Shown: piece after piece, positions 26,591-31,015 of the stretch
Numbering within the stretch: position 1 is the stretch's first letter
How the letters are laid out: each line of letters starts with the position of its first letter
DNA from: Nitrososphaerota archaeon
Lineage (GTDB): Archaea; Thermoproteota; Nitrososphaeria; Nitrososphaerales; Nitrosopumilaceae
Length of the DNA: 64,000 nt
Assembly: GCA_028866895.1 (NCBI GenBank)
Contig: JAGWHF010000005.1
Coordinates: forward strand, 1-64,000
Direction of reading: 5' to 3'
Position numbers and translations under genes: made by a program
The notes under the pieces: model-generated
The model's input: only the letters and a program-made list of their open reading frames with translations
The model's database searches: none
What the model was told of the DNA's origin: nothing

Positions 26591-29500
26591 TTACTCTATT
26601 TTCTCATAGCTTTCAAGAGGCCTTTTTGTTGTCTCATTCTGTCTGAGCCATTCAAGAGTCTTTGCAAACGAGTCTGCAAGTTCGGTCGTTATTAGCACTG
26701 GGATTCCAAGCTCCACAGCTTTTCGTCTTATCTGATATTCATCATAAAGCATTCCGACATACTTTTCCAGTGTGGAGGTACTTGGAACATTTATTATGAA
26801 ATCTATCTTGCGCTCGTAGAGAAGATCAGCTATGTTTGGCTTTCGTTGTGGTTCGCTTATCTTGTAGACTACTTGGACATCACCTATCCTCTTGTCGGCA
26901 AGGAACTCTGCGGTATGTTCAGTAGCAAGAATCTTGTACCCGAGAGTCTTCAGCAGCACAGCAGTCTGCAGCAATTTTTCCTTGTTTTCTGATCCCCCAG
27001 CAGTAATCAGAACTGATCCCTCTTTTGGAAGAGCATACCCTGCAGACATCAAACCTTTTGCCAGTGCATCATAAAATGACTCCCCAAAGCAGGCTGCCTC
27101 CCCAGTGGACTGCATTTCCACCCCCAAGATGATGTCAGCACCCTCCAGTTGCATAAACGAAAACTGCGGTACCTTTATGCCGTAAGAATGAATCTTGCGC
27201 CATCTGTCCTTTGGCACCTTGGGGAGTTCCTTACCAAGCACGGCTCCCGATGCAAGTCCTATCAGGTTCAGTCTAACAAATTTTGATACGAACGGCATGG
27301 AACGTGATGCCCTTATGTTAAGTTCAATCACGTAGACTTGGTCAGAGTTTATCAAGAACTGCAGGTTGAATGGGCCCTTTATCGCAAAGGCGGTAGCTAT
27401 CTTATTGGTATAATCCAAGATCGTCTCTATAACCTTGTTTGAGAGACTCCATGGCGGTATGCACATCATAGAGTCTCCCGAGTGGACGCCGGCGCCCTCT
27501 ATGTGCTCAATCACCGCACCTATGACAACATTCTTGCCGTCGGAAACACCGTCCACCTCTGCCTCCAAAGAATTCAGCATGAATTTCGTAATCACGACAG
27601 GATAATCGGGTGACATGTTGGTTGCCTCGTCAAGGAATTTCTGAAGCTGTCCTTCAGACCATACCACTTTCATTGCCGCTCCGCTAAGTACATAGGATGG
27701 TCTGACCAGTACCGGATACCCTACCTTAAGGGCAAATTTTTTGGCGTCGGAAAGTTTTGAGAAGGCCTGCCAAGGTGGTTGCCGAATGTTCAACTCATCA
27801 AGAACCTTGCTGAAGCTTGACCTGTTTTCTGCCCTGTCTATATTCTCAAAGGATGTTCCGATTATCTTAACTCCGCTTTTCGCAAGTTTCGGAGCTAGGT
27901 TGTTTGCAGTCTGGCCCCCCACCGCCGTCACGACTCCCGTCAATTTCTCAAATTCTGCAATATCAAGGACACGTTCTAAAGTCAGTTCTTCAAAGTACAA
28001 CCTGTCGCAAATGTCGTAGTCTGTTGAGACGGTTTCTGGGTTACAATTTATTACTGATACCTCCTTCACTCCATTTTCCTTCAAACCCCAGACCATGTTT
28101 ACGGTCCCCCAGTCAAACTCCACGCTGCTTCCTATTCTGTAAGGCCCCGCTCCAAGAACCGCAATTTTTTCTGAACTCGGGCCTACTTCGAAGTCATTTG
28201 CCGTTCCGCCATACGTAAGGTACAGATAGTTTGTCTGGGCAGGCCATTCGGCTGCAAGCGTATCTATTCGCTTTACGACTGGGAGTATTCCAAAGTCCTT
28301 CCTCATCTTTCGCACTTCTGCCTCTTCCTTGCCTACAAGCTTGCCGACCTGCCTATCAGAAAAGCCAAGGATCTTTGCCTCCCTTAATGTTCTCTCGTCA
28401 AGCCGCGATTCCTTTAGGTTCCCCTCCATTTTTACGATGTTCTCTATCTTCTCAATAAACCACGGATCAATGGCAGATAGTTTGTAAATTCTTTCTACAG
28501 ACATACCTGATCTAATCGCAGCTGCTACATGATAGAGAATCTTGTCATCTGCCTTTTGCAGTTTGTTTTCTAGGTCCTCAATGTCATAAGCCGCATCTTC
28601 CTTCCTGTTGGCAACAAGTCCATCGTTTCCTATTTCCAGCATCCGTATCGCCTTCTGGAGCGATTCCTCGAAACACCTTCCTACAGCCATTACCTCCCCC
28701 ACTGACTTCATGGTCGGCCCAAGATTCCTGTTTGCAAGCTCGAACTTCCCAAAATCCCACCTAGGGTGCTTGCACACGATGTAATCTAAAGAGGGTTCGA
28801 AGCACGCAGTTGTAGTTTTTGTTATGCGGTTTACAAGTTCCGGAAGCCTGTATCCCATTCCTATCTTTGCCGCCATGTATGCTATTGGATATCCAGTAGC
28901 CTTGGAGGCTAGGGCTGATGATCGTGAAAGCCTCGGATTCATCTCTATTGCAACGTACTTGTCGGATTCGGCATCAAGAGCAAACTGGATATTACATTCT
29001 CCTACAATCCCCACATGTCTTGCCGCGCGAAGTGCGGCGGTCCTCAACATCTGGTACTCGAAATTGTTCAATGTCTGGGAAGGAGCTACCACAATGTTGT
29101 CACCCGTATGAACCCGCATCGAAAGCACGTTTTCCATGTTACATATGATGACGTTGTTTCCATCATAATCCGCCATGACTTCGTATTCAATCTGCTTCCA
29201 ATGACCAACATACTCCTCTATCAGTACTTGTCCTACCAAGCTTGCGTTGAGACCCCGTGTCACAATCTCGTGTAGTTCTATCTCATTGTGCGCAACGCCC
29301 CCTCCCTTGCCTCCAAGTGTATATGCCACTCGAATTATAACCGGATATCCCAAGTCATTTGCAACTACCTTTGCTTGCTCAAAATTGTAGACCGTTTTAC
29401 TTTTCAGTACAGGAACTTTGCATTCGATCATTGAATCCTTGAAAAGCTGCCTGTCCTCGGTGGCCTTTATCCCTCCCACTTGGGTACCCAAGACCTTTAT

Positions 29501-29647
29501 GCCATATTTTTTCAAGATTCCCGCCTCCTCTAGTTTTACACCGCAATTTAGTGCCGTCTGGCCTCCAAAACCCAGCATAAGACCGTCGGGTCTTTCAGAC
29601 TCTATAATGGAAGACACGTATTGCGGGTTTACTGGGATGGAGTACAC
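26591..29647 (-). CDS. carB: Carbamoyl-phosphate synthase large subunit, main open frame (5' end broken)
   Basis: Makes carbamoyl phosphate from bicarbonate, ATP and ammonia channelled from CarA, for pyrimidine and arginine synthesis. The frame codes 1018 residues with two ATP-grasp halves (GGQTALNCG, VRVAYTLGGKGGG, MNPRLSRSSALASKATG in the first; GGQTANNLAPKLA, VRPSYVLSGAAM, ELNIRASRSMPFVSK in the second) and a C-terminal regulatory methylglyoxal-synthase-like domain. Translated upstream, the same phase reads FDYSGSQCLKAIKEEG and NPNIATIQTDTRFAD, which is normal CarB, but has no start codon. The first 25 residues lie in another frame, so as written no full-length CarB can be made; GTG 29647 is only the first available start. 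Confidence 0.9.
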   Translation of the reverse strand: MYSIPVNPQYVSSIIESERPDGLMLGFGGQTALNCGVKLEEAGILKKYGIKVLGTQVGGIKATEDRQLFKDSMIECKVPVLKSKTVYNFEQAKVVANDLGYPVIIRVAYTLGGKGGGVAHNEIELHEIVTRGLNASLVGQVLIEEYVGHWKQIEYEVMADYDGNNVIICNMENVLSMRVHTGDNIVVAPSQTLNNFEYQMLRTAALRAARHVGIVGECNIQFALDAESDKYVAIEMNPRLSRSSALASKATGYPIAYMAAKIGMGYRLPELVNRITKTTTACFEPSLDYIVCKHPRWDFGKFELANRNLGPTMKSVGEVMAVGRCFEESLQKAIRMLEIGNDGLVANRKEDAAYDIEDLENKLQKADDKILYHVAAAIRSGMSVERIYKLSAIDPWFIEKIENIVKMEGNLKESRLDERTLREAKILGFSDRQVGKLVGKEEAEVRKMRKDFGILPVVKRIDTLAAEWPAQTNYLYLTYGGTANDFEVGPSSEKIAVLGAGPYRIGSSVEFDWGTVNMVWGLKENGVKEVSVINCNPETVSTDYDICDRLYFEELTLERVLDIAEFEKLTGVVTAVGGQTANNLAPKLAKSGVKIIGTSFENIDRAENRSSFSKVLDELNIRQPPWQAFSKLSDAKKFALKVGYPVLVRPSYVLSGAAMKVVWSEGQLQKFLDEATNMSPDYPVVITKFMLNSLEAEVDGVSDGKNVVIGAVIEHIEGAGVHSGDSMMCIPPWSLSNKVIETILDYTNKIATAFAIKGPFNLQFLINSDQVYVIELNIRASRSMPFVSKFVRLNLIGLASGAVLGKELPKVPKDRWRKIHSYGIKVPQFSFMQLEGADIILGVEMQSTGEAACFGESFYDALAKGLMSAGYALPKEGSVLITAGGSENKEKLLQTAVLLKTLGYKILATEHTAEFLADKRIGDVQVVYKISEPQRKPNIADLLYERKIDFIINVPSTSTLEKYVGMLYDEYQIRRKAVELGIPVLITTELADSFAKTLEWLRQNETTKRPLESYEKIE

Positions 29648-29724
29648 CCTGTCAGCAAACCGCGTATCGGTCTGAATCGTAGCAATGTTAGGATTTACAA
29701 GAATGCTTTTGATTCCCTCTTCCT

Positions 29725-29856
29725 TTATGGCTTTGAGGCATTGTGAACCGGAGTAGTCAAATTTGCGGTCATTTTATGACTTTCGCCTGCTTCTCCGATT
29801 TTTATGGCCCCACTTCCAAGGACAAGGATCTTCTTCAGCGACTCATCTTTTGGCAT
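29725..29856 (-). pseudogene. carB: 5' fragment of carB, separated by a 20-nt insertion
   Basis: From ATG 29856 the frame reads MPKDESLKKILVLGSGAI and continues KIGEAGE, the normal CarB N-terminus. After the GAA codon at 29782-29784, 20 extra nucleotides (29762-29781) follow. The frame then runs out of phase to a TAA at 29725-29727 after 43 residues. Removing exactly those 20 nt joins GEAGE to FDYSGSQ, restoring the family sequence. The insert holds the inverted repeat GTCAT-TTT-ATGAC (plus strand 29768-29780). The ATG overlaps the carA stop by 14 nt, so the intended start is certain. Confidence 0.85.
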
Positions 29857-31015
29857 TTTCCTCCCCTATCAACTTCTTAAGTTCTTCAAAAACAAACATG
29901 CAATCATAAGGGCCCGGCGAGGCCTCGGGATGAAACTGTACAGCAATTATCTTCTTTTGTTTGTGCTTTATCCCTTCCACAGTCTTGTCATCAGTGTTTG
30001 AAAACCACAACTTGAAATCGGTCTTTTTCAAGGATTCTGGGTCTATGCAATATCCATGATTTTGGCTTGTCACATAGACCTTGTTATTGTCAAGGTCAAT
30101 ACAGGATTTGTTCTGGCCCCGGTGGCCATACTTTAGCTTGTAGGTTGTCGCCCCTCCCGCCAAGCCCAGTATTTGGGCTCCAAGACAGATTCCGAGAGTG
30201 GGTATGTTCTTTTCGATTAGCTCCTTTGCGGTATCCATCGTTTTTGAACATTTGAGTGGATCTCCAGGCCCGTTTGATAAAACTACCCCCTTCGGATTGT
30301 ATGATAAAATCTCTTTTATGGGGTAGTTCCACGGTACGCGTATCACCTTATAACCAAGCTGTCGTATGTTTCGGAGTATTGCATTCTTAACTCCTGTGTC
30401 AACTACCACGATGGATTCATTTTCCTGTCCGTAAACTCTGGGCTCCCTTACGGAGACCACCTCCATGAATTCCTCATTGTTGTATTTTTTTGAGGCGGCC
30501 AGTTGTTTCTTGAGGTCTAGTTCATCGATTTCCCTTTCCGATACGGCAAGTGCCGCCATCATCACACCGTTTGTCCGAAGCTTGGTTGTAAGAGCCCTCG
30601 TATCTATACCCGAGATTCCAGGAATCTTTTCTCTGTATAGCCATTCGTCAAGGGTCATCGAGATATCCCAGTGGCTTGCGGTAAGAGACAGTTCGTGTAC
30701 CACCAGACCCCTTGCCTGTATCCTGTCTGATTCGAAATTCTTCGGTATTCCGTCTTGGTCCTTTTCCAACAGGTCTGGCACACCATAATTGCCAACGAGT
30801 GGATAAGTAAGCGTGAGTATCTGGCCGCTATAGGACGGATCGGTCAATGCCTCGATATAACCTGCCATACCGGTGTTGAATACTGCCTCCCCAAATGCGG
30901 TGGTGGAATAGCCAAAACCCATCCCGTCAAAAACCGTTCCATCCTCCAAAACAAGCTTACCAAACTTTTTTACGTGTTTGGCTTTCTTTGTTGGAATTTC
31001 TGTGACCCTCACCAA
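29843..31015 (-). CDS. carA: Carbamoyl-phosphate synthase small (glutaminase) subunit
   Basis: Hydrolyses glutamine and passes ammonia to CarB. The 390 residues show the N-terminal CPSase domain (LVLEDGTVFDGMGFGYSTTAFGE and IEALTDPSYSGQILTLTYPL) and a class I glutaminase domain. The nucleophile Cys is in TLGICLGAQILGLAGG and the His-Glu pair is in QFHPEASPGP. The start is TTG 31015 or GTG 31012, with a minus-strand TATA-like AACTTAAATT near 31031-31040. The gene overlaps the carB ATG by 14 nt, an arrangement for coupled, balanced synthesis. Confidence 0.95.
   Translation of the reverse strand: MVRVTEIPTKKAKHVKKFGKLVLEDGTVFDGMGFGYSTTAFGEAVFNTGMAGYIEALTDPSYSGQILTLTYPLVGNYGVPDLLEKDQDGIPKNFESDRIQARGLVVHELSLTASHWDISMTLDEWLYREKIPGISGIDTRALTTKLRTNGVMMAALAVSEREIDELDLKKQLAASKKYNNEEFMEVVSVREPRVYGQENESIVVVDTGVKNAILRNIRQLGYKVIRVPWNYPIKEILSYNPKGVVLSNGPGDPLKCSKTMDTAKELIEKNIPTLGICLGAQILGLAGGATTYKLKYGHRGQNKSCIDLDNNKVYVTSQNHGYCIDPESLKKTDFKLWFSNTDDKTVEGIKHKQKKIIAVQFHPEASPGPYDCMFVFEELKKLIGEENAKR

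Follow-up and report, generated by a model that had tools for sequence, protein, structure and literature searches.

A 20-nucleotide insert in archaeal carB that is very probably a bulge-helix-bulge pre-mRNA intron

What is a run of 20 nucleotides doing inside carB, 25 codons after the start, where it throws the remainder of the gene into another frame? In the window, by which I mean the whole 64,000-nucleotide stretch of archaeal DNA that was analysed, carA (29843-31015) and carB lie on the minus strand, as do all the features of this locus described below, and the two genes share 14 nt, the carB ATG at 29856 falling within the final carA codons. Exon 1 (29782-29856), which aligns with that of relatives, consists of 25 codons (MPKDESLKKILVLGSGAIKIGEAGE) and ends in GEAGE, the insert AGTCATAAAATGACCGCAAA follows at 29781-29762, and exon 2 (26591-29761) begins with FDYSGSQ in the other frame and comprises 1056 codons plus the stop. 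An earlier note, made from the letters of this DNA, had already placed 20 extra nucleotides at 29762-29781 between GEAGE and FDYSGSQ, with the CarB N-terminus in one frame up to 29782 and the rest in another from 29761, and all of this proved exact, as did its reading of GTCAT-TTT-ATGAC within the insert (on the plus strand) and its statement that removing the 20 nt restores the carB product precisely. Read straight through in the exon 1 frame, carB meets a stop after 43 codons; the joined CarB would have 1081 aa, and IGEAGEFDYSGSQCLK would be the tryptic peptide across the joint between its two exons.

The same note called carB broken, a description that does not survive the strong purifying selection on both exons (dN 0-0.07, with exon 2 dS saturated). 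Exon 2 alone scores 1385.6 bits against the CarB model NCBIfam TIGR01369, and the joined CarB aligns through the junction motif with the CPS structures of E. coli (1bxr) and human (5dot), exon 1 encoding the first part of this conserved motif. No second carB exists in the host genome, which is 2.26 Mb in size, 99.7% complete and a draft of 95 contigs, and the 20-mer of the insert occurs in it a single time.

The earlier note proposed an alignment with the carB genes of relatives, and that alignment finds the insert at the identical codon junction in many genomes, far more often than chance would allow: 195 of the 400 genomes of the class carry 20-32 nt at exactly this site, 129 have the uninterrupted junction motif (with a gap of 0) and 76 show neither pattern, through incompleteness or variant codons. 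The insert is present in all carB genes with a readable junction from the same genus (Nitrosotalea and kin) and, elsewhere in the order, in many from further genera and families. Most of the sampled genomes are MAGs, and the complete or cultured-strain assemblies agree with them, namely LN890280 (Nitrosotalea devanaterra), NZ_AVSQ01000020 (Nitrosotenuis chungbukensis MY2) and the single-contig G006. A comparison by eye of the list of 129 with the list of 195 turned up no genome possessing both an interrupted and an uninterrupted carB. Two assemblies (G184 and G368) hold two differing intron-bearing carB copies each and are probably mixed bins.

In the explanation that I hold with high confidence, the extra nucleotides form a bulge-helix-bulge (BHB) intron of archaeal type in the carB pre-mRNA, spliced by the tRNA-splicing endonuclease together with RtcB. 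From the features observed at this locus and in its relatives I infer the cutting, the joining and the enzymes responsible: around the intron site of the carA-carB transcript the two exons would pair with each other and the end of exon 1 (GGCG) would pair with the intron's 3' portion, a heteromeric tRNA-splicing endonuclease would then cut each bulge past its second base, and RtcB would join GEAGE to FDYSG to yield the 1081-aa CarB.

An unguided RNAalifold consensus of 55 sequences returned this BHB, in agreement with the arrangement drawn by hand. Its outer helix between the exons reads UCGGAG/CUCCGG, then AG/CU, then C-G, and corresponds in the window to AUCGGAG-A-AGC (29789-29799, 97% paired in intron-bearing genes) opposite G-A-CU-A-CUCCGGU (29747-29758), a pairing backed by RNAalifold, by covariation and by the contrast between genes with and without the intron. 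The central 4-bp helix, GGCG/CGYN in the consensus, takes its 5' strand from the end of exon 1 and its 3' strand from the intron; in the window, GGCG (29784-29787) faces CGCA (29764-29767) with three pairs and a G-A mismatch in the outermost position, where most relatives have C or U, and 97.6% of the cells of this helix are paired across the alignment. Exon and intron covary here, with GGUG in the exon matched by CACC in the intron of one relative (L031). At the 5' border the consensus has an unpaired A(A/G)|A, which in the window is the three-nucleotide bulge AA|A (29781-29783), where the cut is expected to fall between 29782 and 29781, followed by the intron hairpin GUCNN/NNGAC, whose arms GUCAU (29776-29780) and AUGAC (29768-29772) belong to the covarying RNAalifold consensus, four of their five pairs having undergone compensatory changes. 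On the 3' side the bulge AA|U (29761-29763, predicted cut between 29762 and 29761) is present and the helix next to it is imperfect, the outer helix beginning only past small internal loops. In both bulges, the border that the protein defines (GEAGE|FDYSG) comes directly after the second nucleotide.

Together, the 19 BHB pairs are formed in 95.1% of cells, a share that drops to 20-50% on shifting the partners by one to three columns, and cells in which both partners have changed number 36, involving five pairs, against 11.8 in shuffles, none of 500 reaching as high. In the window this fold has an energy of -17.8 kcal/mol (z -3.9), and some relatives give weak MFE z-scores (-0.35 to -1.0). The earlier note had tried to fold a canonical archaeal BHB intron without success; judged by the aligned sequences, the carB motif is a relaxed BHB with a non-canonical 3' side, GGCG-A.A|A-GUCAU...AUGAC-CGCA-A.A|U, which is hidden when one sequence is folded by itself, given this genome's G-A mismatch at the fourth central pair and the relaxation of the 3' side.

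A functional RNA fold would be expected to hold synonymous sites close to the junction fixed solely in insert-bearing genes, and this is what is seen. The mean synonymous entropy of the 12 codons flanking the junction is 0.48 bits in genes with the intron and 1.00 in those without it, compared with 1.00 and 1.12 for distant codons, and the outer and distal exon-exon pairs are formed in 97% of cells with the intron versus 76% without, a contrast that may be inflated by the AT-rich marine lineages in which the intron-less set is rich but that is absent from the distant codons. Nearly fixed in the presence of the intron are GGC before the last Glu, ATC GGA GAA upstream and GAC TAC TCC downstream, and the codons at the bulges still vary (GAA or GAG for the last Glu, TTC or TTT for Phe). 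A distal helix may also belong to the splicing structure, tentatively drawn as GGGG (29808-29811) paired with CCUC (29735-29738), since codons -10 (GGG) and +9 (CTC) are each frozen only when the intron is present.

The introns themselves carry a signal of another kind. Among 75 distinct introns, 39 have a length that shifts the frame, and every one of the 36 whose length is a multiple of three contains an in-frame stop, against a mean of 9 and a maximum of 19 in 2000 shuffles of the introns (10.6 and 20 when only the loops are shuffled), with the proviso that the introns are related, that 36 stops are hence not 36 independent events and that a U-A-A loop may be structurally favoured. In three introns of this length class the loop UAA is missing, and the final codon is TAA instead. 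An in-frame peptide insertion is excluded, since no insert is readable as protein, and selection against reading through unspliced carB mRNA is a possible cause of the pattern. One could speculate, and I regard this as rather improbable, that the intron has been retained to serve as a control point, tying the output of CarB, and hence the synthesis of pyrimidines and arginine, to the tRNA-splicing capacity of the cell; CarB output would follow that capacity because unspliced carA-carB mRNA always ends CarB early (75 of 75 introns). If that is so, the in-frame stops in 36 of 36 introns would parallel, in Archaea, the bias towards stop codons in the short introns of eukaryotes.

The earlier note had left a choice between an assembly artefact, a very recent mutation and removal or bypass at the level of RNA or the ribosome, and of these only RNA-level removal has come out strongly supported. 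An artefact or a private mutation might have been suspected in a draft genome of this many contigs, yet the insert recurs, with covariation, at the same site in genomes from independent projects, and both are excluded because it is conserved across many genera, which leaves them a negligible probability. It is also very improbable that carB has decayed or lost its N-terminus and that CarB starts downstream, for example at the GTG at 29647 that opens a frame of 1018 aa in the list of open reading frames: such a start is available, and every intron-bearing gene runs into an early stop when read straight, but exon 1 is conserved (dN 0 to 0.018) and encodes part of the CPS motif, no other carB could take over in this genome, and the structure of the insert is itself conserved.

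Ribosomes might instead hop over the 20-32 nt, in the manner of gene 60 or byp, from GAA/GAG to TTC/TTT, as would suit the exact restoration of the protein when the insert is omitted and the hairpin that sits in the gap. However, known translational bypassing uses matched take-off and landing codons, and not one of the 75 distinct inserts ends in GAA or GAG, their last triplets being CAA, CAG, TAA, AAA, AAG, CAT, TAG and AAT; nor does a hop predict the pairing of exon 1 with the intron and with exon 2, and I consider it as improbable as decay. Excision from the DNA in part of the population, with expression from copies that lack the insert, appears more improbable still, since no genome has both forms and what is constrained is an RNA fold in which exon codons take part, and I know of no DNA excision machinery for such inserts. 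A group I or group II self-splicing intron was considered and rejected: the ribozyme core of these introns takes up hundreds of nucleotides, 20-32 nt are far too short for it, and nothing in the window matches Rfam.

Splicing as a BHB intron would call for machinery that the genome encodes. Two of its proteins have the tRNA-intron endonuclease domain (PF01974); the alpha-like subunit, whose best match is the catalytic chain of the Aeropyrum pernix enzyme (3p1z_B, E 8e-46), retains the aligned histidine of GPGIDHAP and lysine of VRK, and the beta-like subunit is without the histidine. By these resemblances the pair matches the heteromeric type, and heteromeric (alpha beta)2 endonucleases are described in reviews as able to accept relaxed motifs (PMC6379350, PMC4090602). 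RtcB, the expected exon ligase, is encoded at G000:C87:29395-32334 (L149:396-3335). An intein of about 490 aa splits the RtcB gene product, which falls in the intein-containing RtcB family (NCBIfam NF038162).

How the intron came to be scattered over the order is a further question. On a tree of the downstream protein (100 rows), the presence or absence of the intron changes at least eight times, three of these changes being forced by starred branches, compared with a mean of 30 when the labels are shuffled, and one old gain in Nitrososphaerales with repeated precise losses fits this, such counts alone not separating gain from loss. The intron-less L069 lies within a starred clade (99) beside three intron-bearing rows. 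Its flanking codons also differ at several synonymous sites, and instead of a simple deletion it may have undergone a recombination that replaced its 5' end. Outside the order but within the class, only one of 37 genomes (G069) has the insert, and this intron, which has a UUCG loop, is likely to reflect a foreign contig or a transfer because its carB (L117) nests within family f10 (support 97). A somewhat narrower search pattern found no insert in the other classes of the phylum sample, and as far as tested the carB intron thus seems confined to Nitrososphaerales. Across 31 genomes a covariance model of the motif picks out carB alone, its remaining matches (E >=0.04) being near chance, and the intron is therefore no spreading element; no related plasmid record was found.

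To my knowledge, carB would be the second archaeal protein gene with a BHB intron in its coding region. A search of the open-access literature found no carB intron; subscription journals may contain an earlier report. Among the Archaea, a single gene in a single branch, cbf5, had been known to carry coding-region mRNA introns, and here a candidate appears in a gene of central metabolism, distributed across the ammonia oxidizers and the order to which they belong, where its scattered and precise absence from close relatives offers a natural experiment on the loss and persistence of introns. carB is likely to have been mis-called as frameshifted or truncated in many such genomes, and the observations point, outside the eukaryotes, to selection that acts on exon codons through a splicing structure and favours in-frame stops within introns.

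The first comparison to be made is with cbf5, in whose pre-mRNA a BHB intron was reportedly described by Watanabe in 2002. As of 2020, and beyond tRNA and rRNA, cbf5 mRNA was the only other reported location of an archaeal BHB intron (PMC7714728), and Yokobori 2009 (PMC2738675) gives the cbf5 introns of Desulfurococcales and Sulfolobales a length of 16-44 nt and places their cuts between bulge bases 2 and 3. They resemble the carB intron in being short, in lying in a coding region within a BHB-like and often relaxed motif cut between the second and third bulge bases, in occupying a conserved site in a catalytic motif, in their lineage-specific losses and in being often mistaken for frameshifts. 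However, carB is a different gene, of central metabolism, in a different class, Nitrososphaeria, with a different intron sequence; cbf5 is uninterrupted in the host genome; and in PMC2738675 I saw for cbf5 no rule like the in-frame stops of the carB introns. The same paper cites putative 12-bp introns of an archaeal virus (Peng et al.), candidate elements that, like those of carB, are very short and lie within coding sequence. Another mRNA substrate of the splicing endonuclease, as predicted for carB, is the BHB intron of Haloferax HVO_1309, but it lies in the 5'UTR rather than in a coding region (PMC7714728). Finally, the archaeal tRNA introns with relaxed BHB motifs of the hBH and HBh' types (PMC4090602, PMC6379350) share with carB the same motif and the expected enzymes, and whereas the outer helix of a tRNA intron is supplied by tRNA structure, in carB mRNA it is built from coding sequence.
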